From: a virus
Virus record (IMG/VR): IMGVR_UViG_3300031214_000014
Location: 1-22,853 of that record
DNA: 22,853 bases
Direction: 5' to 3' (one strand)
Part shown: piece by piece, positions 2,973 to 20,888 of the stretch
Layout of the letters: each line of letters starts with the position of its first letter
Numbering within the stretch: the stretch's first letter is position 1
Translations under genes and position numbers: made by a program
The notes under the pieces: generated by a model
What the model was told of the DNA's origin: nothing
Database searches by the model: none
What the model saw: the letters and a program-made list of their open reading frames with translations, nothing else

Positions 2973-2989
2973 TTCTATAGTCCGGGTTA
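2973..2989 (-). promoter_or_regulatory. Phage T7/T3-like promoter before the tail-fibre gene
   Basis: On the minus strand the site reads TAACCCGGACTATAGAA, identical in all 17 bases to the copies before the capsid gene and after the reductase gene. By alignment with T7 promoters the start is the G at 2975, giving a 29-30 base leader to the fibre ATG. The first three bases are the stop codon of the internal virion protein gene. It sits at the place of T7 phi17. Confidence 0.82.
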
Positions 2990-5900
2990 ATCGTTAACCG
3001 TATTTGCTATGGCTAATGCAACACCTACGGCTGCTGTGTTCATTATAGGAGCTATGCCATAGATCTGTTTAAGCCCTTTCATTGCAGCTTCTGAATCACC
3101 AGATACAGCACCAGACACAGTTCCTTGTACGCCCTTGAACCCTTGAGTTACAACACCTGATACAGGCAAAGACTCAAGACCTGTTATTGGTCTAGCACCA
3201 GAGCGTGAACCACTTGTACCGGAACCTCCAGTTAAGCCTACAGTAGCACCAATCTCCATACCGAAACCAAGCAGACCTATTTGTGGACTCATGTTAGCGA
3301 TACCCATTGCTGCGTTTGCAGGATCTGAGGCTCTTTCCCAGCTCTCCTCGAAATCATCTCCGTCTTCCTTCGCCTTGATATAAGCACGAGAGTAGTAAGC
3401 ACCAGAGGATAGACCTGTTCCCCACATAACCTTAAGAGCCATAGCGATTTTGTCACCACGGATACCTGCGGCTACCTGACGTTCTATTGCAATCAACGAG
3501 AATGCCCTGAACTGAGTTATAAGCTTGCCTAACTCTTTGCTCATCCAGATAGGTGTGTCACCAACAAAGGACTTCTGCATGTCTCTGGCAAGCATTGAGT
3601 TGAATGCAGCACCAAGCTTATCTAGGAAAATCTCATCCATGCCATCCCCTGTGAAGATCTGTATCTGATCTCCATCAACAGTGGCGTACTCCGGCTTGTT
3701 TCTAATGTGATTGAACACATTGTCTATCTCATCCGGGGATACACCTGCTCTCTCAAGGTTCTCATAGTCCAGTTTCCTAGGTTTGATCTCACCATTAGCC
3801 ATACGAACCAGCCTGTCCTGCATACCTCTAAGTGCAAGGTCTTCAGATCCATGCTGGACTGCACGATACCCTGACAATAGCTGGGTCTTGTTACTAACAA
3901 AGCCATAAGCATTGTTAAATATCCTTTCAAAGGCGCTCTTACCCGGCTCATCCATTGTGTCAAGCAGGTAGTTGTTGTTCTTGATCCAAGCACCTCGCTG
4001 TCCGTATGCGCCAATAAGCTTGTACATACCCTTAAGATCTTCTGATTCTTCTATCTTACCGATAGCTGCGAAGTCTTTGAACTTAGTGTTACGCATAGTA
4101 GTACCAAGGCCATTGTTTACAATAGCGTTAGAGTTCTCACTGATACTAGCAAACCCGTTCCAGCCAAGCCTAACAAGAGATGCGTACTTCCGTGTCATAC
4201 GGATACCTCTGTACCCAAACGGGATGTCACCTGAAGCTGTTGTGTCTAGGCTCTCTCCGTACATAAGACGAACAGAATCCATTAGCTTGTCTGCATCCTC
4301 ACCAACCTCATCTATCTGATCTTTAAGGGTAGCAATCTCTTTCTTAGTATCTCCTCTCTTAATAGCCAGCTCGATCTCGTTCTCCAACAGGTTCTTAGCT
4401 TCTTTCTGGATGTTCTCGATGGTTGACTCTACCTCACCTCTGCTCTTAAAGCCTTGAGTCCCCATAGCTGCATCAGCACTGGCCTCTCTTGCGTACTTCA
4501 TAGCGGTGTTCTGATCTGTATCAATAAGGTCTACCATACGAATGCCTTTGTGCATGTAGTCTATCTTAGCACCCAACGATAACTTAGCTCTGTTGGATAC
4601 CTGTTCAATAGCACGTACATCACTGAAGCTTTCAAGGAACTCATCAATCTGTCCAGTGGGGACACCAAGGTCTTCAAGGTCAGCTCTCAATGCTACAATG
4701 TTTGATTCAGTTAGTACGCTCTTTACACCAGCTTGTTTTGCTTTCACTGTAGAGTTAACAGCTCTTGCGTACTGAGCCTTAGCTACAATACGAGCTGACT
4801 TCTCATTGAGCTTGAACCTACCATTCATATAGGCACCAGTCATGGTCTCTATAACATCTTCTTTCTTATTGGTTCTGCTGGCCTGAAGTATCTTATTACC
4901 ACTAGGGAGAAATGACCAATACTTAGGATCATGCTTGACGTTCTCAAATCCCTTAACACCATAACGCTTGCGGTACTTAAGAGACTCTTCTAGGATACTC
5001 TGTCTTGCTTCTGCTGCAATCTTGATATCCGGGTCATCACTACCACCACGAACCATAGCTAGTACAACTTCATTATCAAACTCTTTCATCTGGTCACCGA
5101 TACCTAGGTGCATCTTGTAAGAGCTAACACCGTTCTTCTTTGCCCAGCTTACCTTGGCTTCAAACTCACGACCACCTTCCTCATTAAGGATACGTGCCAT
5201 GAATGTATCTTGATGGATAGCAGCAGGAACATGGCCCTTGCCAGCTACCTGTGGATCAGATAAGAGCATACGTGACATACCTCTTATAAGATCACTAGGA
5301 CTCGTATCAAGCCTGCTATACAGAGACTTCAATCCAGTCACACCAAGTCCAGACAACCTACGTAGGCTATCTGCTCTAGGGGTCGCTGCACCGAACTGAG
5401 CTGCTTCAGCGGTCATCTCCTCTATACGACCAGCCCCCGGCACATCAAAGATGTCATCCATGAACTCGGAACCTTCAACCCGCATAGCACCAGCGGAATC
5501 ATCAGCGATCTTCTCAGCGGTTGTAGGTGTCCGTACAGTGCCATCCTCGTTGACCCTAGGGGTACGCCCTGCTTCAAGAGCTGAACGCTCTTCCCGTAGC
5601 TTCCTCGCTGTCTCAGCCATATCGCCTGATCTGCGTAGCTCTGCCCTGTTAAGCGGGGACATCTGTGCTTCCATGCTGTCAAGGAGTTTACCCTTAAGAT
5701 GCTCTGGAACAACACCATTAGTTAGCCTGCTTATATCTGCCCATGCATCTCGGAGTGGTTGATCGGCCTTTAGCCTCTGGTCGATATCATCTGCCTTTGC
5801 TTTGACCTTGGCTAGTCGTTCATCTATGCCACTCAGCTTCCCTTGACGCTCAGCAGCACGTCTTGCACGGATACGCTTAGTACCGCCGGGGTCAATATCT

Positions 5901-7147: not shown

Positions 7148-9292
7148 CTACTGAAACTGCTCCCTGAAAGCCTTCAACTTCGCCTCGCCTATCTTATTTC
7201 TAAGTTTGAAAGTCCCGAGAGCTTCCTCTACTCTCTTAGTATCTACAGCTTCCCGGTAACCAGTACCAAGCTCTCGCATTGTGACAGGTCTATCGAGAAG
7301 AGGTGAACCTAACTTATCAACCGGCATTATCAATCCACCGGGTCTTGCTGTGAACTTAATGTCTTGCATAGACAAGTCATCTAGTGCTGAGTTCTCATCC
7401 ATCTGTTCTAGGTTAGAGCCAACGAACCATTCAAAGGCTTGGTCTAGCTCATCAGGACGAATCAAAGACTGGCCCTCGGCATCAGTTGCTTCTGCTAGGA
7501 TACGTGATCTACTTCTGTTTATAGCAGATCCCGATTTCAACCTAGTGAAGTTACCCAAAGTTCTCTCTGCGGCAGCAGCACCAACAGAGTCAGGATCAGT
7601 AGCACCGCTACCCATCAGAACACTAGCCTCTCTTGACGCCTCAGTTGCCACCCAATTACGGATGTGATCTGGTGCTGCCTCGGAGCCTGTGAACCAAGCT
7701 GTTCCCCATTCCAGAGGACTTCTATCAAGGGCATCGTCTGCTGCGTCTCTGGCATCAGATATGCCTGTGGCCTGCTGCTCTGGTGTTAGGTTGGTCTCAC
7801 CGTGAGTTGCTGCCCAAGCTCTTCTCCAAGCTCTAGGATCTGGCTCCTCGGTGTCTCTCATGGCATTGTAGTTATTGATGAAAGCTCTGGTCTTGCTGTT
7901 CGCACCGTATAATTCGATGTCAGACTCATTCAGCTTAGGCAATGTCTTGAGTGCTTGGTTAGCCCAATCAGGTACACCATCCTCATTTTGAAAGTCGGCA
8001 GGGTCGAGGGAGGATAAAGAAGAAAAGATCCTTTTAAACTCTGGAATCTCTACACCAGCAGCTCTGCTTATATCAAGCTTTCTATCAACTGCGTACCCGT
8101 AAGCTTCAGTTTGATCTAGCTCACCTGTCTCTACTAGCTGCGCTGTGTACTCATCTACACTTTGAGATAGCCCAACTACTCCCTCTCTTACCTCTGCGTT
8201 GGTAAGGTCAGACCTAAGACCAACACGCATAGAGTCTCCATCAGTTACGTTTTGCATAATGTCTATCTGTACTTGAGTGTTCTTCTCTTCGCCAGCAGCA
8301 ATACTAGCCTGCTGTTGCTTGAGAGAGGAGACCATTGCAGCAGACACAGAACCGGGATACCTTTCGTTAAGGTTGTCCAAGGCAGCTTCCGTTTGTTCCC
8401 AGCTTGCCTGCCTTGTCTTCCATGACATCTCAATATCGCCACGTATGCTACCAATCTTAACAGCATTCTTCTGAGCTTCTTTTCTCTTGTAGATCTCTCT
8501 GGCTTGAGCCACCCTAGGGTCACTGGAAGCCCACTCTTGTCCCTCTATAGCAGACAAGATCCTGCCATCACCAACCTCAGCATCTCTACTAGCTGCATTG
8601 ACGATAGTATTCCTGAACTCCTCAGGGGTAACTCCCAAGGCATCGGCCTCAGCAGACAAGCTACCATCTTCACCGATAGTCTGTGAAAGCTCTTCAATAC
8701 TACCAGCAGCTTCACGGTACTCTTCAATGCTGGAGCCTAAGGCATCTGTCCTAAGCCAAGCTTGATGTCCTTTCTGAGCTGCTGTTCTTATCTGGTGTAG
8801 CTGAACCTGAGACTCTTGCAGTCTATTACTAAGAGCCTTGGACAACTGATCATCTGGTTGGTACTGACTGATTAAACCAGAGTAAGCATCTCGTGTAGCT
8901 ACCGCGTACTCATCATCAGTCATGCCGGGGTTTTCCTGAACAGTCTTAGCAAGCTCAGAGTTTGTTTCAAGAACCTGATCACGCATGTTGATAACTTGAT
9001 AGGAGCGTATGCCAGCGTTGGTAGCATCATCTGTAGGGTCTAGCCCCTGAAGTGCTCTCTGCTGCTGTGTCACCTTATCAAGATCTATCTTAGCTTTCTC
9101 ACTGCGAACTGAAGAATCAATAGCCTGTCCAGAAAATGCCATCAGTCCAGAAACTACCCTAGCTGATTTAGTGGGTTGATTAAGGGCAGCTTGTGGTTCA
9201 ACAAAAGTGTCTACAGTTGTAGACGGTTGTTCTCTCCGCTGGTTCCTTGGAAGAGACTCGATAGCCTCTCTTGATATTTGACCATTAGCCAT
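7148..9292 (-). CDS. Internal virion protein C (T7 gp15-like)
   Basis: This 714-residue, Gln/Glu/Ala-rich and largely helical protein has the size of T7 gp15 (747) and sits between gp14-like and gp16-like genes. In T7, gp15 forms a ring in the inner core and, with gp14 and gp16, the ejection channel. The sequence has no signal peptide or obvious membrane segment and no enzyme motif that I recognise; it shows many Q/E/R-rich helices such as EAALDNLNERYPGSVSAAMV. The start at 9292 overlaps the previous stop as TAATG, with AAAGGAGG 7 bases upstream. It ends 48 bases before the gp16-like start. The call rests mainly on size and gene order. Confidence 0.83.
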   Translation of the reverse strand: MANGQISREAIESLPRNQRREQPSTTVDTFVEPQAALNQPTKSARVVSGLMAFSGQAIDSSVRSEKAKIDLDKVTQQQRALQGLDPTDDATNAGIRSYQVINMRDQVLETNSELAKTVQENPGMTDDEYAVATRDAYSGLISQYQPDDQLSKALSNRLQESQVQLHQIRTAAQKGHQAWLRTDALGSSIEEYREAAGSIEELSQTIGEDGSLSAEADALGVTPEEFRNTIVNAASRDAEVGDGRILSAIEGQEWASSDPRVAQAREIYKRKEAQKNAVKIGSIRGDIEMSWKTRQASWEQTEAALDNLNERYPGSVSAAMVSSLKQQQASIAAGEEKNTQVQIDIMQNVTDGDSMRVGLRSDLTNAEVREGVVGLSQSVDEYTAQLVETGELDQTEAYGYAVDRKLDISRAAGVEIPEFKRIFSSLSSLDPADFQNEDGVPDWANQALKTLPKLNESDIELYGANSKTRAFINNYNAMRDTEEPDPRAWRRAWAATHGETNLTPEQQATGISDARDAADDALDRSPLEWGTAWFTGSEAAPDHIRNWVATEASREASVLMGSGATDPDSVGAAAAERTLGNFTRLKSGSAINRSRSRILAEATDAEGQSLIRPDELDQAFEWFVGSNLEQMDENSALDDLSMQDIKFTARPGGLIMPVDKLGSPLLDRPVTMRELGTGYREAVDTKRVEEALGTFKLRNKIGEAKLKAFREQFQ

Positions 9293-9888
9293 TACGTACC
9301 TCCTTTCACTGTTGCAGCCGGATCACCACCGTAACCTAGGCTTTCTTGTATGTCCTTGCCTGCCGCGTATCCCTGTACTCCAGCAATACCTGTCTGTAGC
9401 CCGACCTCTGCCCAACTTGGACGTTGTATCTTTCTGTTGTCAGTTCTGGCTGCTGTTCCCACCCGGATACTTTCAGCTTGGTTCCTGAAACCTTGGAGTT
9501 CAATATCTTGATTGGTTATGATGGTGTTCATATTACGACCTCGTTGTTGCCTGAGGTCACGAACCATACTGTCTACGCTGAGACCACTGGTGCCTGAGGC
9601 TGCTGCCATCAGACTAATCTTAGAACGCCTAGATGCGTACTCTCTTTGATTAGCCATAGACTCCTCAACAGCTCGTTGCCTAGAGTCTTTTTCTGCTCCT
9701 GACAACTGACTGTACTGGTCTTGCATAGAGTTCAAAGCGGCTGCGTTCTTCTGCTTCCTCTGTGTTTCTGCTGCTTGCGCGGCGTTCCGGGCCTGTATAC
9801 CCTGCATCATAGCAGAGCCAGCAGCCGTGACTGCTGCTATCGCCCCGGCGTTAGCCGCTACCCAAGCACCTGCTGCTGCTATAGCCAT
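9292..9888 (-). CDS. Internal virion protein B (T7 gp14-like)
   Basis: This 198-residue protein is nearly the length of T7 gp14 (196). It starts with an Ala/Gly-rich hydrophobic segment (residues 2-30, MAIAAAGAWVAANAGAIAAV and AAGSAMMQG), followed by a Gln/Arg-rich coiled-coil region and GTSGLSVDSMVRDLRQQRGRN, the typical plan for the ejection protein that inserts into the outer membrane. It follows the tail tubular B gene by 19 bases and overlaps the gp15-like gene by one base (TAATG). AGGAGG lies 6 bases before the ATG. Family by layout and composition. Confidence 0.85.
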   Translation of the reverse strand: MAIAAAGAWVAANAGAIAAVTAAGSAMMQGIQARNAAQAAETQRKQKNAAALNSMQDQYSQLSGAEKDSRQRAVEESMANQREYASRRSKISLMAAASGTSGLSVDSMVRDLRQQRGRNMNTIITNQDIELQGFRNQAESIRVGTAARTDNRKIQRPSWAEVGLQTGIAGVQGYAAGKDIQESLGYGGDPAATVKGGT

Positions 9889-9907
9889 GCTTTCCTCCTA
9901 GTTAAAA

Positions 9908-12451
9908 TCATACACGGCGTCCCCTTTGTGTGAACCTACCCCTCCACTCCATATCTCTTAGCTGGAAAGGTATGTGGCTGTCCGTGATTAGTTTGAATGT
10001 TATCTTCTCTGATTCTTGCCTGATAGGAAAGCTGTACTTACCCGGAAGGATAGGCGCAAAGCCAATGATATTACTGAATCCACCAATAACCCTGCTATTG
10101 AACTCGTAATTTCTTGTGACTCCCCACTCATTTTCAACAACAACTTGGGTTAGTCCTGTCTTATCATAGTTGATATTGACATCATTTATAATAAGCCTAT
10201 CTGTATCTATAACCTTGCCAGCTCTATCTTTGATGAAAGGCATAGTTGGTTGGTATACCATCTTGTATCTTATTCCACCAATGATAGAAACTTCAGACAC
10301 GTCATCTGGCGCTATGTTCTCTTCTATAGATACTTGCTGTCCTGTCCTACTGAATGTAATTGTTACACCAGAATCAAAGCAGCCATCCCCTCGAACAAGA
10401 GATAACTCTTCACCAGCATAACCATAGGGTATCTCAACATCCCACTGCCCATTGGCCTTAACGGCTGTTGCTTGAAACCTCCTGTCTAACCTAGCAGAGA
10501 ATGAAAGCCCATTATCATCGGGGTCTCCTGTTTCGATACGCTCAAGCTCAAGGTTACCCTCTCGGTTTATGAGGATGTAGATAGTATCATTGTCGTAAGC
10601 TATGTACTGTACCTCACCCTCGAAGATCCACTTACTCCATGAGGACTGAACTCTATCCTCACCTTGCCACAACCAGTTGTACACATAGACTTCACTAGGG
10701 TCTTCAGCTAATACAAGAAGCTGGTTCTTGTTTGTGCTGGTAGCTAGTTGCCTTGCTCTACCCATAATGTATTCATCTACGTGGTCTGTTACTGGTCTAG
10801 CTCTCTTTGTATCTGTGAAGCTGTCAGTATAGAACTCCCGGATACCAGAGAATCTTCCGTAAGCAAAAGCAAAGAAGATAACATCGCCTGAGGCAACAGG
10901 TGGACAATCAGCAATATTCTCAAAGGTACTAGCGAACTGCAAAGTTGCGTTGCTCTTAGTGATAGGCTCTCTTCCGCTCTGCAAGAACTGTCCGTTTCTA
11001 CTGAAGAATACCCTGTCACCATCTAGGATAGCAGAGTTCTCAAGGAAGTTAACCTTATTGGTATCTGCGTACACATCAATAGGATCTGTATCTAGCGCAG
11101 TCCTTACTGTGCTCCTAAAGAAATCAAAGAACTGATTGCTTCGGCTATATATAACAGACTCTCCTGCTGTCAATGACAACCTGTTTTGTAATGTGCCTAT
11201 GCTAGTCAGGGGAACACCATCTTGTACAAAGGATGGCATCGGGTTACTCTCCTCTGTCCCAAAACTTCTCTCTTCCCAAGGCCCTTCCTTTATAATAAAG
11301 ACAGCCTTACCCGCCTCAAACCTATCTCTTATAAGAACAACAGGCATAGTCAATACATCCAGCCCTACACTCTGCTCAGGGCCTTGTGTCTCCACCCACC
11401 TTACAGTAGATCCAGAGGTCTCTATTGCTACAAGCCAGTAGTTATCATCGCTGTTGTTTCCCTGCCCAACTACTTCCACCCGATAGCCAACAGGTGCGTA
11501 GACAGGTAGATCAGTTACTTGCTTAACCAAGTTCTTTACAACAAAGAGATCTCTGCCATCTGCACCGTCTGTAGTTGATATATCAAAGTCTGTGCTGTCA
11601 GTCTTTCTTACTAGGATAGTGTTACCTTCAAGAGTAAACTCGTATCCAACAATCTCTCCTAGGTTGGTGCTATCTGTTGCTTCGTAATACTGGAACGCAT
11701 CAACAAACTCCGGGTCTTTTTGTGTGCCCTGATTAACCGATTGGTATACCGCCTCATAAGTTTTTCCATTTAGGAAAATAGTATTATCAGGAGTGCTCGA
11801 AGTCGCATCAGTAAACTGTTGAGTATAGATTCTGTCAACACTAGGATCTCCATAGTTGTTATATAGCCTCTCAGCTACAACAGAAGTATCTACATCATTT
11901 ATATCTTCAGGTTCACTACCATCTGGTGTTGTATAAGACGAGATAGTTGTACCATTAAGGCTAATAGAATACGTCCTACCATAGTCAGCAAACTGAACAT
12001 TTATTATAGCCTGATTATCCAGTGCTGGTGTCAGCTCAGAATCTGCCAAAGGAACTACAGTCTTGTTAACTATAAAGGTGAAGTCACTGATAGTAGAGAA
12101 TCGCATAAAATCAAGAGGGTTTGAGTTGAAGATGTACCCTGTAGAAAGAAGGTTGTTCTCCACTACTAGCTCATCACCAGAGATGTCGAATACACGGGGA
12201 AGGCTGTTAGGTGGAATAGCTACTATGTACTCTTCTCCTGTGCCTCTATTGTAGTAATGATACGCTGTACTCTCTGGAAGTTTCGCAGTAAGAGTTCCTA
12301 TCCTTACAGTTCCCGGACGTTTTCTCAAACCAGTTACTACAGAGCTTATAGCGTTCTCTTGAATACTAGCTTGTCCTTCCAGCCTTATCTTAGGTGGTTG
12401 CTGTGAAACACCTTGAATGGGCCTAGCCCATGCACTCGTTGTTAGAGCCAT
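9908..12451 (-). CDS. Tail tubular protein B (T7 gp12-like nozzle)
   Basis: This 847-residue protein forms the tail nozzle below the gatekeeper ring in T7-like phages. The N-terminus carries the diagnostic pattern IQGVSQQPPKIRLEGQ (residues 13-28) followed by N-A-I-S-S-V-V-T-G-L-R-K-R-P-G-T. The remainder is beta-rich, with aromatic and Asp/Thr-rich strands, and it ends in MEWRGRFTQRGRRV, a typical basic tail. T7 gp12 is 794 residues, so this is slightly longer. The ATG at 12451 has AGGAGG 5 bases upstream and begins 9 bases after the gp11-like stop. Confident assignment. Confidence 0.95.
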   Translation of the reverse strand: MALTTSAWARPIQGVSQQPPKIRLEGQASIQENAISSVVTGLRKRPGTVRIGTLTAKLPESTAYHYYNRGTGEEYIVAIPPNSLPRVFDISGDELVVENNLLSTGYIFNSNPLDFMRFSTISDFTFIVNKTVVPLADSELTPALDNQAIINVQFADYGRTYSISLNGTTISSYTTPDGSEPEDINDVDTSVVAERLYNNYGDPSVDRIYTQQFTDATSSTPDNTIFLNGKTYEAVYQSVNQGTQKDPEFVDAFQYYEATDSTNLGEIVGYEFTLEGNTILVRKTDSTDFDISTTDGADGRDLFVVKNLVKQVTDLPVYAPVGYRVEVVGQGNNSDDNYWLVAIETSGSTVRWVETQGPEQSVGLDVLTMPVVLIRDRFEAGKAVFIIKEGPWEERSFGTEESNPMPSFVQDGVPLTSIGTLQNRLSLTAGESVIYSRSNQFFDFFRSTVRTALDTDPIDVYADTNKVNFLENSAILDGDRVFFSRNGQFLQSGREPITKSNATLQFASTFENIADCPPVASGDVIFFAFAYGRFSGIREFYTDSFTDTKRARPVTDHVDEYIMGRARQLATSTNKNQLLVLAEDPSEVYVYNWLWQGEDRVQSSWSKWIFEGEVQYIAYDNDTIYILINREGNLELERIETGDPDDNGLSFSARLDRRFQATAVKANGQWDVEIPYGYAGEELSLVRGDGCFDSGVTITFSRTGQQVSIEENIAPDDVSEVSIIGGIRYKMVYQPTMPFIKDRAGKVIDTDRLIINDVNINYDKTGLTQVVVENEWGVTRNYEFNSRVIGGFSNIIGFAPILPGKYSFPIRQESEKITFKLITDSHIPFQLRDMEWRGRFTQRGRRV

Positions 12452-12460: not shown

Positions 12461-13096
12461 CTATTGGTACATATTGTTGTTGCCACCTATGAGGCTTACC
12501 CCGCTGCGGATCTGTGCGTTATCTCTAAGGTAGTTCTTCCTAGCTGTTCTGTGGTGCTCAGCCTCAAGGGCTGCAAATGCTCTGTTCTCTCCACGCATAT
12601 TGATCTGGTGCTGAACCTGATCACCAACAACATCATCAGCGAATACCCTACGGGATTTCCAAGCGATAGCAGACCTAGCCGTTTGTGGTAATTCTCCGTA
12701 CTCCAGAGCAAGGATAAGAGAGAAGGTAATTGTACCATCTCTGTTAACAATGTCTCTTAAGTCAAAAGTGTGAGCATCTGTATCGTACACCTTGTTCCCT
12801 CTTACGGTAAGTCTCTCACCTCTGTCATAGAATGTCGCTCTTGCTTCTACAATACTAAGTGTGTTATTAGGTAGTGCTATTGCTCCGAGGGCATTAGGTT
12901 GCAGGTGCCAGTTTCTTTCGGTATTAAACCACCAGCCTCTACCAGCATTTACTTGGAGATCAAGACTTGACTGCTGGATAACAGCTCTTGCCATAGCAGA
13001 GTCTAGGTCGGCAGTCTCTAGGCTTGAGACAGGCTCTCTACCAATCCCAGCAAGGCATAGGTTCACTGCATCAAGTTCTGTATTAAGTAGTTCCAT
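12461..13096 (-). CDS. Tail tubular protein A (T7 gp11-like gatekeeper)
   Basis: This 211-residue protein (T7 gp11 is 196) forms the adaptor/gatekeeper ring joining the portal to the nozzle. Recognisable features are the N-terminal pattern ELDAVNLCLAGIGREPVSSL followed by Asp-Ser-Ala repeats, and GRGWWFNTERNWHLQP (about residues 52-67), a signature of the family. The C-terminal half has E-x-R-R-H-R-T-A-type helices. It is the first gene after the terminator that follows the capsid gene and has AGGAGG 5 bases before its ATG, so its expression depends on read-through of that terminator or on transcript processing. Confidence 0.95.
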   Translation of the reverse strand: MELLNTELDAVNLCLAGIGREPVSSLETADLDSAMARAVIQQSSLDLQVNAGRGWWFNTERNWHLQPNALGAIALPNNTLSIVEARATFYDRGERLTVRGNKVYDTDAHTFDLRDIVNRDGTITFSLILALEYGELPQTARSAIAWKSRRVFADDVVGDQVQHQINMRGENRAFAALEAEHHRTARKNYLRDNAQIRSGVSLIGGNNNMYQ

Positions 13097-13110
13097 TATT
13101 CCTCCTAAAC

Positions 13111-13141
13111 AAAATAGCCCCGCCCCATTAGGGACGAGGCT
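13111..13141 (-). terminator. Intrinsic terminator after the capsid gene (Tphi position)
   Basis: Transcribed leftwards, the region folds into an 11-base-pair stem (13131-13141 with 13116-13126, two of them G-T pairs) and a 4-base loop (13127-13130), followed by ATTTTGTTT. It lies 15 bases past the capsid stop and before the gp11-like gene, where T7 has its Tphi terminator. A partial terminator here would keep capsid message in excess over tail message. Confidence 0.85.
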
Positions 13142-13155
13142 TGATTGCTAGACTC

Positions 13156-14244
13156 TTATGTTACAGTCTGAGTCTTGACGATTTTACGGTTAGCCCGTGC
13201 AGTAACATCAGTGTTTTCGGTGTTACCAACTACGTCAACTACGGAGACAGCATCCCATGCGGAAGGGATTGCGCCCTCTGCTTGGTAGGTGTCAACGAAC
13301 CATGACTTAGAACGACGATCCCAAAAGATGTCACCAGTCATATCAATGGTCTTACCAGTAAGCAGAGCTTCAGGCTTGAACACGATAGCTTTGGACTTAG
13401 CCTGATCCAGACTAGCGGTGTAACGCTGGCCGTTTGTTGCGTTGCTCAACTGACCAGTACGGCTCACTACATCGTTGCCGTTCGGCGCAACTCGCGGGAA
13501 ACGGTTGGATGGAATGACAGGTACGTTGTAGCTCTTCAGAGTAAAGCCGGATACAGTATCACCTTGGAAGGTGCTGTAGTCTGAGTTTACAATGCGCTCG
13601 GCATCACGTAGTACGTTGAACTCGATCCAAGGAACCATGATATACATATCATCCAGATCCACACCATCACCACCATCTTTACCAGTCATCATGTTCTCGA
13701 TAGCCAGTTCGATTGCAGCTTGCAGGTTCTCGGGATCACCCGCCTGATCTGAGGAAATGCTAATCTGGTAAGAGAAGCCGTGACCTGATACACGAGCAGT
13801 AGTACGCTCGGCAAGGGTGTTGCTCTGTGCAGAATAGATCAACTGCTGTACAACCATCTCATCTTCCAGACGAGCAAGTTGCTTCGCTTGGTTCATGGAC
13901 AGCTTAGAGTTGTAGCCTTCGATGTCGTTCTGGATGTCGTGAAACATAGCAACGGCGTTACGAGAGATTACAGTAGTGTCAACTACCAGAGCGTTCTTGT
14001 CTTGCTCAGTAGTGGTAGCTTCCGGGTCTTGACCGGGAGAGAGGATTTGCAGTTGGGTATCACCCATGAATTTCTCAGAAACCATGTTGGTGCCAACGAC
14101 CATTTGTACATCAAAGAAACGCAATAGGTTTTCTTGACGAATGTACGCTTCTTTTACTTTACCTGTGAACTTCTCAACCAGTAGCGTATCGACTTCACCT
14201 GAAGCGGATACTGCCGGGTTGGTAACATTATTAGTAGTAGACAA
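13156..14244 (-). CDS. Major capsid protein (T7 gp10-like)
   Basis: This 362-residue protein has the size and pattern of T7 gp10A (345): an N-arm followed by LLVEKFTGKVKEAYIRQENL, VVGTNMVSEKFMGDTQLQIL and ISRNAVAMFHDIQNDIEGYN, typical of the HK97-fold shell proteins of T7-like phages. It lies between scaffold and tail tubular A, with a phage promoter just upstream and an intrinsic terminator just downstream, as in T7. The start is a TTG: no in-frame ATG or GTG fits upstream, and AGGAGGT lies 6 bases before it. The leader is AT-rich. I see no sign of the T7 gp10A/B frameshift extension, since the sequence after the stop runs straight into the terminator. Confidence 0.95.
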   Translation of the reverse strand: MSTTNNVTNPAVSASGEVDTLLVEKFTGKVKEAYIRQENLLRFFDVQMVVGTNMVSEKFMGDTQLQILSPGQDPEATTTEQDKNALVVDTTVISRNAVAMFHDIQNDIEGYNSKLSMNQAKQLARLEDEMVVQQLIYSAQSNTLAERTTARVSGHGFSYQISISSDQAGDPENLQAAIELAIENMMTGKDGGDGVDLDDMYIMVPWIEFNVLRDAERIVNSDYSTFQGDTVSGFTLKSYNVPVIPSNRFPRVAPNGNDVVSRTGQLSNATNGQRYTASLDQAKSKAIVFKPEALLTGKTIDMTGDIFWDRRSKSWFVDTYQAEGAIPSAWDAVSVVDVVGNTENTDVTARANRKIVKTQTVT

Positions 14245-14280
14245 TTTTGTACCTCCTAAATTATTTTAAAACGCCTTTCC

Positions 14281-14297
14281 TTCTATAGTCCGGGTTA
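14281..14297 (-). promoter_or_regulatory. Phage T7/T3-like promoter before the capsid gene
   Basis: The minus strand reads TAACCCGGACTATAGAA, identical to the other two junction copies. The predicted start is the G at 14283, giving a leader of about 39 bases with AT-rich sequence and AGGAGGT before the TTG of the capsid gene. The TAA is the scaffold stop codon. It is at the T7 phi10 position. Confidence 0.85.
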
Positions 14298-15161
14298 AAG
14301 CCCTCGCTTCATTCCCGTCCTACGTCTGGCGTCGAGTTGTTTCTGTGCGTTGACTTTCTCATGGCCTTTCAAGGCACGGAAAGCAGAACTTGTCATTTCA
14401 TTGATATAGTCTTGACCCGACAATCCAGAACCAGAACCAGTGTCACTAGCACTGTCACCAGATACTAGGTTTACTGTTGTGTCGCCTTCTGCTGATTGCA
14501 TCTTTCCGTTCAAAGCTTTGATAGCAAGCTCTTGCATCCACTTGTCACCACTGGACATAGCCTTATTGAAAGAAGTAATCTCTCCCTCATCTAGGTTTTC
14601 TGTTGCCCATGACTCAAGGGAGTTCCAGTTTTCTTCGCCTCCAACAACTTCGTTGCTCCACTCAACAGCTTGTTTATCTGCTTCACTTGCAGCGTTCTGA
14701 GCTTCAGTTGCTCCTTTAAGGATGCCTTCGTTCTGGCTCTTCATTGCATTAAGAAAGGTGTCTACAACTACCTTGCCGTATTTCTCATCCAAGGGCGCTC
14801 TTGTATCATCAGACAAAGTGAAGTCACTGTCTTTACCGTAAAGCTCTTTAAGAACGGAGTCTACGTTAACACCGGCAGCATCAAGGTTACCCTTCAGGTC
14901 TTCAGGGACCTCTACTTGAACTTGTTGTCCATTGAAATAGAAGTCTGCTTCTCCAGAGTCATCAGTGGAAGTCTGCTTGGACTCTTCACTTGTTGATTCT
15001 GTATCTGTCGCCTCCGTGACGCCTGTTCCTTCTGTCGTTTCCGTGGTGCTCGTGCTCTCTTCTGTTGCATTGGTTACACCCTCAGTAGTTGCGGGAGTTA
15101 CACCCTCTGAACTAGGTGTACTTGCTGTTCCTTCTACTACAGTTGTATCTTCGGTACTCAC
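14295..15161 (-). CDS. Capsid assembly scaffold protein (T7 gp9-like)
   Basis: This 288-residue protein (T7 gp9 is about 307) sits between portal and capsid, the fixed place for the scaffold that guides procapsid assembly and then leaves. Residues 1-70 are a striking low-complexity Thr/Ser/Glu tract, the middle is acidic and helical (LKELYGKDSDF; DTFLNAMKSQNEGILKG), and the end is a basic tail (NAQKQLDARRRTGMKRGL) of the kind that contacts capsid protein. The start is GTG, overlapping the portal stop as GTGA; AAGGAGG lies 6 bases upstream inside the portal end, which suggests translational coupling. Confidence 0.9.
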   Translation of the reverse strand: MSTEDTTVVEGTASTPSSEGVTPATTEGVTNATEESTSTTETTEGTGVTEATDTESTSEESKQTSTDDSGEADFYFNGQQVQVEVPEDLKGNLDAAGVNVDSVLKELYGKDSDFTLSDDTRAPLDEKYGKVVVDTFLNAMKSQNEGILKGATEAQNAASEADKQAVEWSNEVVGGEENWNSLESWATENLDEGEITSFNKAMSSGDKWMQELAIKALNGKMQSAEGDTTVNLVSGDSASDTGSGSGLSGQDYINEMTSSAFRALKGHEKVNAQKQLDARRRTGMKRGL

Positions 15162-16726
15162 TGTTGGCCTCCTTGTTTGATCATATCAGGAACGGCTTTG
15201 CTGGCTTCTGCTGCCATCTTCTGTTCCATCATTGCTTTCTGTTCAGCTTGCTGCATCTCTTTGAACTGCTCATCATTCATCAACCAGTCTATTTCTAGGC
15301 CAATCTCAGCAGCTACCTTGCCACTAAACTTGTCCCATTGCACTCTACGTTGCATAGTTTCAGGCCATGAGTTAGTCATCTGAAGCATCTCTGTGAATTG
15401 CATGATCTTGTCAAGCTCGTTCATTCTACCTAAGGCTTCTACACCAGTTATAATCTCTGGACTAAAGTCACCTAGTTTCAAATCAGAATTGCTGTTATCA
15501 ATAGCCATCTTGAGAAGGCGCATAGCTCTAGGCTTCTGCCAGATAGCAGACAGGTGACTGTATACACCACCCAAAGCCAGCTCAAGATCAGCAGCATCCT
15601 GTCGGATCTCATAAGCAGTTACACGTTCTGCATCTCGTCTTGCTGCCCGAGATACCATAAAGGCTTCACCAACCCTTCGCTCGTAATCCCTAAGGACTTC
15701 AACGATAGGAGAGAAGTCTGCGTATTTCTCTAACTGTAGAACACCGATGTCATCAATGTTGCCACTGATGAATTCCCCTGTTGGGCTTTCAACAAGATGG
15801 TCAACATCTGTGTAGCTTCCGGGTTTAACAAGGTACTTGATGTCTGCCATCAAGATCATACCCTTAGCTACAGCCTCAGAAAGTATTTGAATAACATGGA
15901 AATCTCCACCATGATCTTCTACCAAGCCTCTACCGTAATCTTCACCGTGAGTATGGTTCCACATTAAGATGGTGAAGGGGATGTTCTCTTCCTTCATAAG
16001 GCTTTCTTTACCTACCACCACACCAAGGACTTCTTGATATACTTTGTACTTACCATCAGGTTGACGCAAGCCACCTGTGTACAGAGAGACCTCAGTATCA
16101 TCTTTGATGTGACTGTTACGATAGTCTGATTTTACCTGCTGCTTAATCTCCTCCGGCATAGAGCCTAAGGCTTTCTTCTGGCAGATTATAACTTCAAGTA
16201 AAGTTCCATACGTATCTCTCTTCACAACGTACTGGTTTAGGCTTAAACCTATAGCATGTTTAGTTGTTTCAGGGAAGTAGTGCATGTAGTTACCAGTGAT
16301 AATCAAATGCTTGGATGTTTTAATATCCAAGTCTCTAGGTGTTGTGCTGTCCATGAATGTCATGGCATCAGACTCTACAGCGGCAAGCTCAGTTGCCAAG
16401 GTAGAACTGTCCCAGCCCTCTTCCTTTAGTTCTCTTTGGATATCAGAGGAGAAGCTTAGTTTAAAGAAAGACCTAGAAGGCGGGAACAGGGTCATTATAA
16501 TCTTGTTACTAAGGTGATTAACAACCTTTGCACCAAAGCTCTGCCAACCGTGTTGCATAGAATCACTTTCTGTGTTCTGATTCTCTGGCATAACGTATGG
16601 CAGTGTAGCCTTGGCGTATTGCTCTGAACGACTTAGATAGGTCTCCCTTTTCTGCTTCAACTGATCGTACTTGGAAGCTAGGGTAGACCCTTTATCTCCA
16701 TAGGGAGACAAGGGATTGTTTTTCAT
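15158..16726 (-). CDS. Portal / head-tail connector (T7 gp8-like)
   Basis: The 522-residue protein (T7 gp8 is 536) forms the dodecameric portal through which DNA is packaged. The N-terminus shows the family plan: a YDQLKQKRETYLSRSEQYAK helix, then W-Q-S-F-G-A-K-V-V-N-H-L-S-N-K and TLFPPSRSFFKLSF (about residues 60-92). Later come VSRAARRDAERVTAYEIRQDA, typical of the wing and stem region, and a Gln/Ala/Met-rich C-terminal helix. AAGGAG lies 5 bases before the ATG. It starts 9 bases after the gp7.3-like stop and overlaps the scaffold start by four bases. Confidence 0.97.
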   Translation of the reverse strand: MKNNPLSPYGDKGSTLASKYDQLKQKRETYLSRSEQYAKATLPYVMPENQNTESDSMQHGWQSFGAKVVNHLSNKIIMTLFPPSRSFFKLSFSSDIQRELKEEGWDSSTLATELAAVESDAMTFMDSTTPRDLDIKTSKHLIITGNYMHYFPETTKHAIGLSLNQYVVKRDTYGTLLEVIICQKKALGSMPEEIKQQVKSDYRNSHIKDDTEVSLYTGGLRQPDGKYKVYQEVLGVVVGKESLMKEENIPFTILMWNHTHGEDYGRGLVEDHGGDFHVIQILSEAVAKGMILMADIKYLVKPGSYTDVDHLVESPTGEFISGNIDDIGVLQLEKYADFSPIVEVLRDYERRVGEAFMVSRAARRDAERVTAYEIRQDAADLELALGGVYSHLSAIWQKPRAMRLLKMAIDNSNSDLKLGDFSPEIITGVEALGRMNELDKIMQFTEMLQMTNSWPETMQRRVQWDKFSGKVAAEIGLEIDWLMNDEQFKEMQQAEQKAMMEQKMAAEASKAVPDMIKQGGQQ

Positions 16727-16735
16727 GTAGTCTCC

Positions 16736-16936
16736 TTACGCGCTGAGGCCAGTACCTACCCCTTGGTTTGACCCAACGGCATTACCTGAAGGTCTACGCA
16801 ATGCACGGCGACCTTTCTTTTCACTTTCTTCGCCTTCCCCACCAACAGCGATATCCTCAGGCTCAATAGTGTCTGATCTTTCTGGACGCTTGGCCGGGTT
16901 AGGTACTTCTGGTGTACTAGGTGACATAAAACCCAT
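16736..16936 (-). CDS. Small virion/tail-assembly protein, gp7.3-like
   Basis: This 66-residue protein precedes the portal gene, where T7 has gene 7.3, a small virion protein needed for adsorption. The plan matches: a Pro-rich, acidic middle (EPEDIAVGGEGEE), a basic block (KKGRRALRRPSG) and a Gly/Ser-rich C-terminus (VGSNQGVGTGLSA), as in T7 gp7.3, which ends in basic then Gly/Ser-rich sequence. The start overlaps the acetyltransferase stop as TAATG and has AGGAGAAAG upstream. Such short low-complexity proteins carry little information, so the match rests on place and composition. Confidence 0.55.
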   Translation of the reverse strand: MGFMSPSTPEVPNPAKRPERSDTIEPEDIAVGGEGEESEKKGRRALRRPSGNAVGSNQGVGTGLSA

Positions 16937-17409
16937 TATAACTTTCTCCTGTATTGTGAACCTAAATGAGAGTACCCTAATTTTTGGTACAGTTTACTTG
17001 TCTTTGTTTCATGGACACCCGAGGCTATGCTAAGTCTAATTTCAGATGCACCTTCCTCTTCAGCCCAATCTTCATAAGCTCTCAGTAAATCTAAACCATG
17101 CCTAGTGCCTCTGTACTCAGGTGCAACGTAAACAATTTGATCGAGAGCTACCTTCTCTGGTGACCAAGGTAATGCTGCTACACAAACAGCCCATAGCATA
17201 CCAACAACTTCCTTCTCAGAATTCAAGCTGAGGATAAACAGTTGGTTAGGGTCTTTTGTTGCAAGCATCATATTACCAATGGCAAGCGAGGAGTCGTAAG
17301 AGAGGCCAGCGTATTCGCCAGCCTCCTCAAGGTAGCTCTCTGCTAAACATAGTACAGTGAGAGCATCAAATGCGGTAGCTTCACGTATCATTGGAGATGC
17401 CGTATACAT
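16936..17409 (-). CDS. GNAT-family N-acetyltransferase
   Basis: This 157-residue protein has the GNAT fold order: N-terminal IREATAFDALTVLCLAESY, strand VVGMLWAVCVA (about 68-78), motif A at about 89-110 (LDQIVYVAPEYRGTRHGLDLL, binding the acetyl-CoA pyrophosphate), and motif B with SKLYQKLGYSHLGSQYRRKL at the end. In motif A, Arg103 replaces the usual first Gly of the Q/R-x-x-G-x-G/A loop. The substrate is unknown; phage GNATs may modify host or virion proteins. It lies just before the gp7.3-like and portal genes, overlaps the upstream small gene by 29 bases and has only a weak AGGG site, so Met7 (17391) is an alternative start. Confidence 0.8.
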   Translation of the reverse strand: MYTASPMIREATAFDALTVLCLAESYLEEAGEYAGLSYDSSLAIGNMMLATKDPNQLFILSLNSEKEVVGMLWAVCVAALPWSPEKVALDQIVYVAPEYRGTRHGLDLLRAYEDWAEEEGASEIRLSIASGVHETKTSKLYQKLGYSHLGSQYRRKL

Positions 17410-17578
17410 TTACCCTGTGCTTAAGAACATCAAGAATCCTAAGACGTTCCTGTTCTGCAACGAGTTTCCAAGTTGGCTTGTCAGGGTTCGGTGGGTCTGG
17501 TAAAAGGGTTTGTTCTATCAGCTCCCAAGCATCAATAGGTATCGAAGGTTTCTTGGAAGGTTTCTTCTGAGACTGCAT
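17381..17578 (-). CDS. Small protein of unknown function (65 aa)
   Basis: The protein is Lys/Pro-rich at its N-terminus (MQSQKKPSKKPSIPIDAWEL) and helical afterwards (WKLVAEQERLRILDVLKHRVNV). GGAGGAG lies 4-5 bases upstream of the ATG. The start lies inside the end of the previous small ORF, overlapping by 47 bases, and the end overlaps the acetyltransferase start by 29 bases, so the three are likely translated from one message. I do not recognise the family. Confidence 0.6.
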   Translation of the reverse strand: MQSQKKPSKKPSIPIDAWELIEQTLLPDPPNPDKPTWKLVAEQERLRILDVLKHRVNVYGISNDT

Positions 17579-17717
17579 AAATCTCCTCCGCCTGCTCTAT
17601 TAGTGTATCAACATTAAGTCCAGCATTAGTCCCTTCCATATAAAGGTCTGTGCTCACCAAGCCTTCTGTCGCCTGTGACTCAACGATATCTGCTGCAATG
17701 ACTACTTGACTCCGCAT
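17532..17717 (-). CDS. Small acidic protein of unknown function (61 aa)
   Basis: This is the first gene after a predicted phage promoter, with a leader of about 22 bases and AAGGAG 8-9 bases before the ATG. The protein is acidic (MRSQVVIAADIVESQATEGL; then EQAEEIYAVSEETFQETFDTY) with no membrane segment or motif I recognise. Its 3' end overlaps the next small gene by 47 bases and encodes that gene's ribosome-binding site in the EEIYA codons. Position and signals support it as real; function is unknown. Confidence 0.6.
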   Translation of the reverse strand: MRSQVVIAADIVESQATEGLVSTDLYMEGTNAGLNVDTLIEQAEEIYAVSEETFQETFDTY

Positions 17718-17736
17718 TTAATTACTCCTTATCTGT

Positions 17737-17753
17737 TTCTATAGTCCGGGTTA
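17737..17753 (-). promoter_or_regulatory. Phage T7/T3-like promoter after the reductase gene
   Basis: The minus strand reads TAACCCGGACTATAGAA. The predicted start is the G at 17739. The TAA is the stop codon of the reductase gene. It would drive the small genes, acetyltransferase, gp7.3-like, portal and scaffold genes, similar in role to T7 phi6.5. Confidence 0.83.
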
Positions 17754-19619
17754 TGTTACTTCACAACCAGAGGAAGAGCAAGCTATCTCACCTGCAAGGT
17801 CTGTGTTGTCTGTCTCTTCGTGTACCTTGGTAAGGTCAATGCCTTCAAGGTGCGAGTACATTTCTAGGAATTTCTCTTCTGTGATATCCTCAAAGGGAAG
17901 CTGTTGGTAAGTGCCACCTTCATAAGGCAGAACCGCAATACCATTGAACTCTTCACGATGACTCCACATCCACTCAGACACAGTTCCCCACTCATCTGGC
18001 TTAACTGAGATAGTGCAAGATACGTTATGACTGTTCTTACCTGTTCGATGACCAGTGCGTACCCATTCTTTATTGAAACGGGATACCCGATCAAGCAATG
18101 AAGTAAGAGACTCTGTTCTCACGATGGAGCCTTCAGGTGCCCGTTGAGGTACGCTGATAACTGCCATAGTGTCTGGACGGAACACCTCATCTTCCACCAA
18201 TTCAGGGTGTACTTTAGCTAGGTACTGATACAAGGCTTCGTTCTTACCAATACGCATACGGCGAATGTAGTAAGTGTTGTGCCAAGCATGGATACCAGAA
18301 GAAGAACCAGCTACCAAAGAGCTAGTGCCTGAAGGCTTAACAGTAGAGGTGCGAGCTGCCCTGTTGATACCAATTTTCTTAGAAACTATATCGTTCTCTT
18401 CAAGAACAACACTGGAAGCTTTCTTTAGATCTAGGCTCAACACACAACCACTGGCTATACCAGTCATACCAACACCAATCAAGGCATCCTCTTCAGTGGT
18501 ACGCTTCCACTCAGGGTTAAGGTAATGGAAGTTAGTGTAGCCTGCCTGAAGTGTACCAATGAATGCAGCGGCTCGTGATCTATCTTCTAGGTCTTGCTGG
18601 TCTACAATGTTACTGGCATTTATCTCCGTTAGATTGCAGAACTGGTACGGCTTAAGTGCTATCTCACAACATGGGTTGGTTCCCCAATCTGCATCGTTAG
18701 TCCAGTACACTCCGGGTTCACCTGAATGACTGTCCTCTACCTTCTGCATTAGAGCATAGAACTCCTCCTGAGATACCTCACTCCGAGGAAGCACTGCACT
18801 GTTGTTGGCTCTGCCTCGCTGAGGATTATCCAGATACCATTCTCCAGATTTGCAGCTAAGCATCTCTTCGTCATCTCTGTCGAACAAACAGATCAGGGCA
18901 GCACGGCGGATACCACCGGCTAGGACTGCATCAGCAATGAAGCAGAACATATCATGCACTTCGATTGGCTTGAGTTTTGTTCCACGACCACGGGCTTTTA
19001 ATACACCTTCCAGCAGAGCCTCAAGCTCCAGCAGGCAAGCCTTCAGTGGATCAGGGCCGGGTGCCTTGCCACCAGAAGTAACAAGCTCAGCGCCTTTGTG
19101 ACGGATGTCACTGAAGTCAAACACTGGTCGGATCTTCCCATAGAAATAAGCCTCAACCAGAACCTTAATAGAGTCAGCCCATCCCTCAATGCTGTCCCCA
19201 ATCAAGAACCTTCGCTCTCGATAGTCGGGGCCTTGCAGGGCAGGGAGCTGATCTACGTGTCGGTGCTGTACTGAGTACCCTGCACCAGAACCACCTAGGA
19301 GTAAGAACATCACTTCCTGAAAAGAACTTACCTGTTCAGCAGGTAGGTACGCACAGTTGAATATCCGATTAGGGGCCTTGAAGATCGGGTTACCACCGAA
19401 CTGCAATGAGCGCATAGAAGGCAGAACCTTCTTAGGCATAACAAAATCCATGTACGTATTAAAGATATCTGTTGCAAGATCTGGATACGTATCAATGTGC
19501 ATCTGCATGTTACGAAACACTAGCTCTTCCCATGTTTCTCTGCGCTGTAGGCTTGGTACGAACTTTGCGTACTTGGTAAACACCGTGATATCTGAGAGGA
19601 TACTTGTAGCTTTATCCAT
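17751..19619 (-). CDS. nrdJ: Class II (adenosylcobalamin-dependent) ribonucleotide reductase
   Basis: This 622-residue enzyme should reduce ribonucleotides (probably triphosphates) to deoxyribonucleotides for phage DNA synthesis. It resembles the monomeric Lactobacillus leichmannii RTPR type. Cys89 (RIFNCAYLP) and Cys328 (FCNLTEI) would be the reducing pair and Cys317 (GTNPCCEI) the thiyl-radical residue; the 11-residue spacing 317-328 equals that of Cys408-Cys419 as I recall them. KPSGTSSLVAGSSSGIHAW is the phosphate-binding loop region, and Cys614/Cys619 near the C-terminus (ACSSSGCEVT) would be the thioredoxin-linked shuttle. It is shorter than the about 739-residue L. leichmannii enzyme. 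The start overlaps the MazG-like stop as TAATG. A second Cys directly follows the radical Cys, where Gly or another residue is more common. Confidence 0.92.
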   Translation of the reverse strand: MDKATSILSDITVFTKYAKFVPSLQRRETWEELVFRNMQMHIDTYPDLATDIFNTYMDFVMPKKVLPSMRSLQFGGNPIFKAPNRIFNCAYLPAEQVSSFQEVMFLLLGGSGAGYSVQHRHVDQLPALQGPDYRERRFLIGDSIEGWADSIKVLVEAYFYGKIRPVFDFSDIRHKGAELVTSGGKAPGPDPLKACLLELEALLEGVLKARGRGTKLKPIEVHDMFCFIADAVLAGGIRRAALICLFDRDDEEMLSCKSGEWYLDNPQRGRANNSAVLPRSEVSQEEFYALMQKVEDSHSGEPGVYWTNDADWGTNPCCEIALKPYQFCNLTEINASNIVDQQDLEDRSRAAAFIGTLQAGYTNFHYLNPEWKRTTEEDALIGVGMTGIASGCVLSLDLKKASSVVLEENDIVSKKIGINRAARTSTVKPSGTSSLVAGSSSGIHAWHNTYYIRRMRIGKNEALYQYLAKVHPELVEDEVFRPDTMAVISVPQRAPEGSIVRTESLTSLLDRVSRFNKEWVRTGHRTGKNSHNVSCTISVKPDEWGTVSEWMWSHREEFNGIAVLPYEGGTYQQLPFEDITEEKFLEMYSHLEGIDLTKVHEETDNTDLAGEIACSSSGCEVT

Positions 19620-19927
19620 TACTCACCTGCCTTAACAAAGGTGCCATCAATGGTCTTGCCTTTGCGCTTGCTGATCTTATTATAAGCAGACTCAAGCATC
19701 TCTGCCAGTGTGGTGCCTTGCAACTTTGCTTGTACGCATAGAGTTACCAGAACATCTCCACCTTCCATGATTACTTTGTCTCTATTGCCCATGTGTACTT
19801 CATCTGCAAACTCGTAAGCTTCCTCAATGAATTTGTTAACCTGTGCAACTTCGTTACCTTCAAAGATCAGGCCCTTACCTTCTGCCCACTCTCCTACTGA
19901 CTTCTCTAGTTCTTCTAACTTAGGCAT
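19619..19927 (-). CDS. MazG-like nucleotide pyrophosphohydrolase
   Basis: This 102-residue protein has the all-alpha NTP-PPase pattern: metal-binding E-E-A-Y-E (Glu35, Glu36, Glu39) and E-G-G-D (Glu55, Asp58), then QAKLQGTTLAEMLESAYNKISKRKGKTIDGTFVK, typical of phage MazG-like proteins. Members hydrolyse nucleoside triphosphates or nucleotide alarmones to monophosphates and pyrophosphate. It is translated with the reductase (TAATG overlap) and has GGAGG 6 bases before its ATG, just downstream of a terminator hairpin. The pairing suggests tuning of the dNTP pool; the true substrate cannot be read from sequence. Confidence 0.85.
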   Translation of the reverse strand: MPKLEELEKSVGEWAEGKGLIFEGNEVAQVNKFIEEAYEFADEVHMGNRDKVIMEGGDVLVTLCVQAKLQGTTLAEMLESAYNKISKRKGKTIDGTFVKAGE

Positions 19928-19942
19928 TAAACCTCCAAGTAG

Positions 19943-19975
19943 TAAAGAAAGGGGCTACGCTGCCCCTTTTTTTGA
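19943..19975 (-). terminator. Symmetric terminator hairpin after the ligase gene
   Basis: An 8-base-pair stem (19948-19955 with 19962-19969, core GGGGC/GCCCC) encloses a 6-base loop. Going leftwards it is followed by TTTCTTT and preceded by seven A; on the plus strand the same stem is followed by seven T, so it should work in both directions and better on the plus strand. It lies in the 49-base ligase/MazG gap. T7 has its early terminator TE just after the ligase gene too. Confidence 0.75.
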
Positions 19976-19976
19976 A

Positions 19977-20888
19977 TTAAAAATCTGGTTCAGCTTTATC
20001 ATGCCGTAACTCACCTACTTTAGGTAATCTGATCTTACCCTTGCTGCTATCTTGCAGACCATACACTGCGTAGATTCTGCCAACAGGGTCGTTCTCTTTG
20101 AACTCAAACATATACTGTGCATCCTCATGAGTGTAGTTCTTACCAAGCATAGCTTTAATAGTGTCGCCATCCTTCCACTTGAAGATAAGATTAGCTACCT
20201 TTCCAGCGTACTTTCCTTTACCTTCTTCGGTATCAACACACAGCAGGTCGTACTCAACACGACGAACTTTCTTCATTGAGCGCCAGCCTTTATGTCCAGC
20301 TTCCCAATCAGCGTCATGCTTTAATACGACACCCTCCTGTCCTTCATCAATAGCACCCTTAGCAAAGCTCTCAAGCTCAGAATAGGAATGAATAAGATGA
20401 GTGCCGATGCAAGGAACACCGTGAAGCCTAAGACGATGCTGGCGATGAGTGTAGCGTTGCAAGCTCTTCCCATGAATGAACTCTTCAATAGTAAGATGGT
20501 CATAAAAGTGAATCTCCACATGAGTTATAAAGTAGTTTCCCAATACAGTGTCAATGTCTTTGGTCCGGTTAGGGTTCACAATTCCACTCAAAACCTCAAG
20601 GGACTTGCCGGGCAAACAAACCTCACCTATGTATACTCCTGCTTTCAGGTGACTATATTTCTTACAAAGACGCTCAAGATTGGATAGTCTTTTACCTGTC
20701 CTTCCGAAGATAGAAAGGTGTGTCCCGGTAGCAATGATCATACCGAAGACTCCATCATGCTTGATCTGTCCAATCAGAGGGTAAGATATTTTCTTCTCGC
20801 TGACTTCCTCCAAGTTCTTGACGAGCTGAACAATCTTACCCTCTTTTCTATAGTCCGGGGCAAGCCCCAAGAACTCAAAGCAATTCAT
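19977..20888 (-). CDS. ATP-dependent DNA ligase
   Basis: This protein of about 303 residues (T7 gp1.3 is 359) should seal nicks during phage replication and recombination. Motif I is QIKHDG with Lys43 as the adenylated residue; then FGRTGKRL (Ia), GEVCL with Glu89 (III), EGVVLKHD (IV, about 185-192) and GWRSMKKVRR (V, about 201-210). The C-terminal part, about 85 residues, would be a small OB domain. I chose ATG at 20888, which overlaps the DUF3310-like stop (TGATG) and has GGAG upstream; GTG one codon earlier is possible. Codons 9-15 contain a phage-promoter core. T7 places its ligase early, whereas here it follows exonuclease and endonuclease genes. Confidence 0.9.
   Translation of the reverse strand: MNCFEFLGLAPDYRKEGKIVQLVKNLEEVSEKKISYPLIGQIKHDGVFGMIIATGTHLSIFGRTGKRLSNLERLCKKYSHLKAGVYIGEVCLPGKSLEVLSGIVNPNRTKDIDTVLGNYFITHVEIHFYDHLTIEEFIHGKSLQRYTHRQHRLRLHGVPCIGTHLIHSYSELESFAKGAIDEGQEGVVLKHDADWEAGHKGWRSMKKVRRVEYDLLCVDTEEGKGKYAGKVANLIFKWKDGDTIKAMLGKNYTHEDAQYMFEFKENDPVGRIYAVYGLQDSSKGKIRLPKVGELRHDKAEPDF
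20846..20862 (-). promoter_or_regulatory. Phage promoter core inside the ligase gene
   Basis: The minus strand reads CCCGGACTATAGAA, 14 of 14 bases identical to the core of the three junction promoters, but with TGC instead of TAA upstream. The predicted start is the G at 20848, the middle base of codon Arg14 of the ligase. A small palindrome, GGGGCTTGCCCC, overlaps its upstream half. Messages from it would lack the ligase start and serve MazG-like and reductase genes downstream. Confidence 0.68.

Follow-up and report, generated by a model that had tools for sequence, protein, structure and literature searches.

A dispersed motif in an uncultivated SP6-like phage is very probably the promoter of a phage-encoded single-subunit RNA polymerase

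What is the function of a 17-base motif that recurs on a single strand of a viral DNA fragment in which 445 of 22,853 bases are intergenic? The fragment, IMG/VR record IMGVR_UViG_3300031214_000014, is referred to here over its whole length of 22,853 nucleotides as the window. It carries three exact copies of TAACCCGGACTATAGAA on the minus strand, at 2973-2989, 14281-14297 and 17737-17753, each of them intergenic, and a fourth match on the same strand at 20846-20862 (TGCCCCGGACTATAGAA), in which two bases mismatch and the 14-base core at 20846-20859 is exact. All four were found where the original prediction had placed them, and the +1 positions obtained by sequence (2975, 14283, 17739 and 20848) are the start points that it had listed; we take these to be the probable initiation sites. 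The prediction had also proposed that the motif be counted against shuffled sequence. At up to three mismatches the window holds 4 matches versus 0.02 expected (100 shuffles, none of which reached 4), and the motif is thus not frequent at random; a reversed-pattern control scanned in the window gave no matches. The repeat is strand-specific, has a TATA-like core ending in the +1 G and adjoins phage genes. The open-licence literature, whose scope leaves most subscription papers outside, yielded no mention of TAACCCGGACTATAGAA. Together with the evidence set out below, these observations lead us to conclude that the motif is, with high probability, the promoter of an uncultivated SP6-like phage of Autographiviridae-type gene order, used by a single-subunit RNA polymerase that the phage itself encodes.

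The gaps around the three exact copies measure 41, 50 and 33 bases; from the +1 to the next start codon there are 30, 39 and 22 bases, respectively, with a ribosome-binding site in between. Copy 1 (+1 G at 2975) separates the internal virion protein D gene from the tail fibre N-terminal protein gene (2166-2945, minus strand; PHROG 2710; PF03906, Phage_T7_tail), whose ATG is at 2945, and would drive the tail-fibre genes. Copy 2 (+1 G at 14283) occupies the gap between the scaffold and major capsid genes and would drive the capsid operon; the capsid gene (13156-14244, minus strand; PHROG 267 major head protein, E 2e-61) has a TTG start, and its product is 50-52% identical to SP6-like phage capsids. 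Copy 3 (+1 G at 17739), which is kept in the related contigs L109 and L021, follows the ribonucleotide reductase gene and would drive the operon of small ORFs, acetyltransferase and head-tail adaptor (portal), the last at 15158-16726 on the minus strand (PHROG 449, E 9e-170). The flanking genes bear out the proposal that the copies take places like those of T7 phi17, phi10 and phi6.5 for these three. A putative terminator, a minus-strand hairpin at 13116-13141 with an 11-pair stem and then a T-rich tail (fold z-score -4.0), comes after the capsid gene and resembles Tphi of T7, likewise a strong hairpin in that place.

Every gene in the window with a family match is on the minus strand, and the T7-group structural families matched comprise the tail fibre N-terminus, internal virion proteins, tail tubes, capsid, scaffold and portal. 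SP6, HJG and Vp670 have the same gene order (5'-3' exonuclease, endonuclease VII, metallophosphoesterase-position ORF, ligase, acetyltransferase, portal, scaffold, capsid), the metallophosphoesterase of the window being assigned by position, as a Pfam search of this ORF gave no match. This order, along with an early RNA polymerase gene in the phage group, identifies a member of the SP6-like supergroup (Molineuxvirinae, Colwellvirinae and relatives). Unlike SP6, HJG and Vp670, the interval between ligase and acetyltransferase contains genes for a ribonucleotide reductase (17751-19619; one match is to a class II-like insertion domain) and for a MazG-type pyrophosphohydrolase (19619-19927). A 48-base segment of the tail-fibre gene (2373-2420) occurs as a tandem repeat with a period of about 66 bases in contigs L015 (9691-9842) and L022 (5609-5694), possibly encoding a stalk of variable length. 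An Rfam search of the window returned nothing, and a search of public phages for DNA nearly identical to the window found none.

The original prediction had counted four promoters, and its weakest point is the fourth; the three exact copies are conserved and intergenic. Copy 4 (+1 G at 20848) lies inside the 5' end of the ATP-dependent DNA ligase gene (19977-20891, minus strand; PF01068, PF14743) and is absent from the homologous place in five relatives (L109, L018, L013, L008 and L021); this lack of conservation makes it the least certain of the four. A chance or decaying match without function, a reading that would leave copies 1-3 as promoters, has a likelihood that we put somewhat short of even: besides its absence from the relatives, the copy falls within a coding region and is changed at -13 and -12, positions that are invariant in the other sites, yet its exact 14-base core has an expected number, over both strands, of 0.00015, T7 too has an intragenic promoter (phi4c), and promoters may move. 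As the core is far beyond chance, copy 4 may be an intragenic promoter that is young or specific to its lineage, from which transcription would possibly begin inside the ligase gene, although it deserves less trust than the other three.

The original prediction had invoked a phage RNA polymerase, as yet unseen, of distinct specificity. A search of the window for an RNA polymerase gene (PF00940) found none, as expected for a record that is a 22.9 kb fragment. A scan of viral contigs found the exact 17-mer in 18 of them; 12 can be aligned with the window, and the remaining six carry a polymerase gene. A T7-type polymerase is encoded in 7 of the 18 motif-bearing contigs; the eighth match of the polymerase search, G019, is a phage genome lacking the motif and is not counted among the seven. 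The phages that bear the motif encode a T7-type polymerase in the sister contigs L018, L005, L013 and others, as well as in a further genome, G021, though not in the window fragment itself. L018 contains the polymerase gene together with six promoter copies, all on one strand, two of which (at 4006 and 4731) come after the polymerase gene; just upstream of another promoter, at 14088 of L018 (L107), are three tRNA genes (Met, Leu and Arg; 13686-14061). L018 overlaps contig L109 for 4.7 kb with 99.6% identity; the alignment of L109 with the window is 93% identical over 14 kb and 97% identical over 10.7 kb that take in most of the structural genes. From these overlaps, the polymerase belongs to the part that the window lacks, the upstream half of the genome in this phage group, and the window's own phage probably encodes the same enzyme. 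However, the window between about 19,400 and 22,219 is only 75% identical to L018, and its polymerase could therefore differ in detail. Identity to L018/L109 is about 97% in the structural genes but drops to about 75% across ligase and the upstream region, a pattern suggestive of recombination between related phages.

The L018 polymerase matches PF00940 and PF14700 and keeps the catalytic residues D537, K631, Y639, H811 and D812, and its AlphaFold model (mean pLDDT 78) matches structures of T7 RNA polymerase, 1CEZ (the promoter complex) among them. Its identity is 44-47% with the polymerases of SP6, HJG, Vp670 and PP99 and 33% with that of T7, and in trees built from the polymerase and from six concatenated proteins the lineage falls within the SP6-like supergroup (100/100) yet outside every subfamily compared. 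The designation of the motif as a T7/T3-like promoter is therefore apt in that a single-subunit system of the T7 type is involved, but needs amending in that the polymerase is of the SP6 rather than the T7/T3 type. The proposal of a phage polymerase with its own specificity is supported, as the enzyme is present in motif-bearing sister contigs and has a specificity loop unlike those of T7, T3, K11 and SP6; the L018-type polymerase presumably reads this motif. A polymerase scan of GTDB genomes found only a 34% relative, in Bradyrhizobium, and consequently identified no host.

That the phage group encodes its own polymerase bears on whether the motif could instead be a host RNA polymerase promoter of the sigma-70 type, with TATAG, which resembles part of a -10 element, as its -10 box. 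A scan for pairs of -35 and -10 hexamers at a spacing of 16-18, run over 9000-22853, the stretch with copies 2 to 4, found no such pair at the copies at 14281 and 17737 and one weak plus-strand match overlapping copy 4. The same interval held 14 sigma-70-like sites against 19.1 expected in shuffled sequence, and the near-invariant block of 13-15 bases is unlike a sigma-70 pattern. We accordingly regard the probability of a host promoter as negligible.

If the motif is a phage promoter, related phages should hold counterparts at equivalent gene positions. We scanned for repeats de novo, with no prior motif and with T7, T3, K11 and SP6 as positive controls; the known promoters of all four were recovered, and the T7 start points checked were the annotated ones. 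This revealed that each SP6-like lineage has its own, different promoter: ATTAGGTTGCATAATAG in HJG, AATTAAGTTGCAGTATAG in IMG 2974513341, AATTAGGCACTACAATAG in PP99, TTAGAGACCACTATAG in PM85, TTAACCACCCAGTATAG in EamP-S2, TTAACTACTACAATAG in VL73, TTACAGGCCAGTAGTG in BD1 and, in Vp670, TAAGTTGCCCTATAG, which agrees with the published phiA318 consensus AATAAAGTTGCCCTATA (PMC4099482). A lineage-specific copy is present in the scaffold/capsid gap in all ten annotated genomes compared, the same gap as that of the window copy at 14281, and at least one copy is present in the polymerase/helicase interval in 10 of 10. For P26059B, CRP-125, RHph_I40, IME-DE1 and 46 distant contigs the de novo calls gave no secure start register, and these were left out of the residue-base comparison below. 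The positions recovered also weigh on the suggestion that the motif is an operator or another protein-binding site, serving a phage regulator, replication or packaging, rather than a start site. Dispersal and conservation would fit such a site, and the same phages do have a second dispersed family, a palindrome, that is the more operator-like of the two. However, the motif is non-palindromic, its orientation is always toward the following gene, its end is TATAG plus purines, and its gene-relative positions are those of the known T7 and K11 promoters from the same scan. A binding site of this kind is, in our judgement, very unlikely, and a promoter is the reading that we retain.

The palindromes form a family of their own. 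Nearly all SP6-like genomes examined contain palindromes of 16-18 bases (GTC....GAC) with lineage-specific arms, mostly 6-10 copies per whole genome (SP6-like genomes L131-L136 and L139-L141). The arms are GTCTACA/TGTAGAC in L018 and the window, GTCTCAC/GTGAGAC in HJG, Vp670 and G021, and GTCCAAC/GTTGGAC in PM85. Copies are found at 21871-21886 and 9209-9224 in the window and at 550, 3062, 3977, 4156, 6826 and 16311 in L018 (L107). Across 13 sequences, some of them close relatives, 23 of 91 palindromes are found upstream of the local phage promoter at a distance of at most 60 bases and 1 of 91 lies downstream, and some directly precede a ribosome-binding site; none adjoins any of the four promoters of the window. 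Several palindromes (those just given for the window, and those at 550 and 6826 in L107) are intragenic and encode Ser-Thr-Thr-Val-Asp in frame; the proteins concerned include internal virion protein C, the C-terminus of the helicase and the product of the metallophosphoesterase-position ORF. In other autographivirus-like clades the palindrome families are different ones, of up to 14 copies (L206, L236, L232), and a search of the open literature found no mention of the SP6-like family.

Base by base, the promoter of this lineage, WAACCCGGACTATAGAA, is a composite: AACCC at -13 to -9 as in the T3 consensus, GG at -8/-7, and ACTATAG at -6 to +1 as in T7 and SP6. This description had been given correctly in the original prediction as regards T3, T7 and the GG, and had missed that ACTATAGAA (-6 to +3) is also the start region of SP6. 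Thirteen of 18 positions are invariant among ten distinct sites in the group. The motif falls outside the SP6 specificity class, which requires GGTGAC at -12 to -7 where this promoter has ACCCGG, and outside the T3/T7 class, with CGG rather than CTC at -9 to -7 and with I746, E756 and T758 in the polymerase rather than R746, R756 and Q758. In T7 RNA polymerase, N748 contacts -10/-11, R756 contacts -9 and Q758 contacts -8 (PMC5937735), and R746A inactivates the enzyme (PMC11477551). The corresponding residues of the L018 loop (I746, Y748, E756 and T758), which differ from those of T7, T3, K11 and SP6, are placed on the two strands of a hairpin in the model of this polymerase. Neither these loop residues nor CCCGG at -11 to -7 matches any of the cultured phages compared, and as far as our searches reach the specificity is new, the kind of system being well known.

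A second, likewise uncultivated lineage shares the promoter. Scanning contigs with AAACCCGGACTATAGA identified G021 (IMG 3300025030_000256, L160-L161; 38,762 bases), which starts inside an RNA polymerase gene and carries the promoter ten times, on a single strand. Its polymerase is 49% identical to that of L018 and has E746, D748, C756 and I758 in the loop. Polymerase and six-protein trees place both lineages deep in the SP6-like supergroup and in none of its subfamilies that were compared, and support for a sister relationship between them was 34% and 26% of bootstraps in two trees and 64/62 in another. A common ancestor already using this promoter would be a simpler reading than convergence. 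Comparing residue 746 with base -7 across lineages, with the annotated gene taken as the BD1 polymerase, R746 pairs with C in nine phages, Q746 with T in PP99, WCT72P1 and VL73, and I746 or E746 with G in the L018-type and G021 lineages; the exception is Vibrio phage BD1, with I746 and C. As independent pairs on the tree amount to only 1-2 independent contrasts, we claim no significance for this correlation, and the tracking of base -7 by residue 746 is suggestive only. A broader proposal, which we advance tentatively and consider less likely than not as a whole, is that CCCGG at -11 to -7, with G at -7 where T7, T3, K11 and SP6 have C, may define a distinct natural specificity class; that two polymerases of 49% identity may have replaced R746 differently (I746/Y748 versus E746/D748) and so make different contacts; and that the clade-wide upstream palindrome may regulate or process transcripts.

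Under the promoter reading, the single-subunit polymerase would bind WAACCCGG (-14 to -7), mainly through its specificity loop, melt TATA at -4 to -1 and begin transcription at the G of GAA. Such a polymerase-promoter pair should not cross-talk with those of T7, T3, K11 and SP6, which would make it an orthogonal expression tool, and it would be useful for studying the reading of DNA by the specificity loop. Two distant polymerases with a promoter in common but different contact residues would also provide a natural test of the share of the recognition code that lies in residues 746, 748, 756 and 758.

Among known systems, the SP6 promoter and SP6 RNA polymerase (Zindervirus SP6, Molineuxvirinae) share with the present system, as read from sequence, ACTATAGAA at -6 to +3, a scaffold/capsid promoter, two promoters after the polymerase gene, the gene order and 45% polymerase identity, but have GGTGAC in place of ACCCGG at -12 to -7 and R/R/K/S in place of I/Y/E/T at 746/748/756/758. 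The T3 promoter has the same AACCC at -13 to -9, a likeness that in several G021 copies reaches as far as AATTAACCC (-17 to -9), and the G021 polymerase has D748 as does that of T3; T3 differs in TC at -8/-7, in R746, R756 and Q758, and in a polymerase only 33% identical. Vibrio phage phiA318/Vp670 and Aeromonas phage HJG (Colwellvirinae) are likewise SP6-like, with lineage-specific promoters at equal gene positions, but have GTTGC rather than CCCGG at -11 to -7 and polymerases that are 46-47% identical. Finally, the metagenome-derived polymerases EM1 (PMC9596486) and No. 1575/2049 (PMC13029058) are also uncultivated T7-type enzymes with promoters inferred from sequence data; those promoters (TCAGAAGTCACACTATAA; TAATTAACCCACACTATAG; TATTTACTGGACACTATAG) keep the C at -7, unlike the one described here, and, once inferred, were active in vitro.
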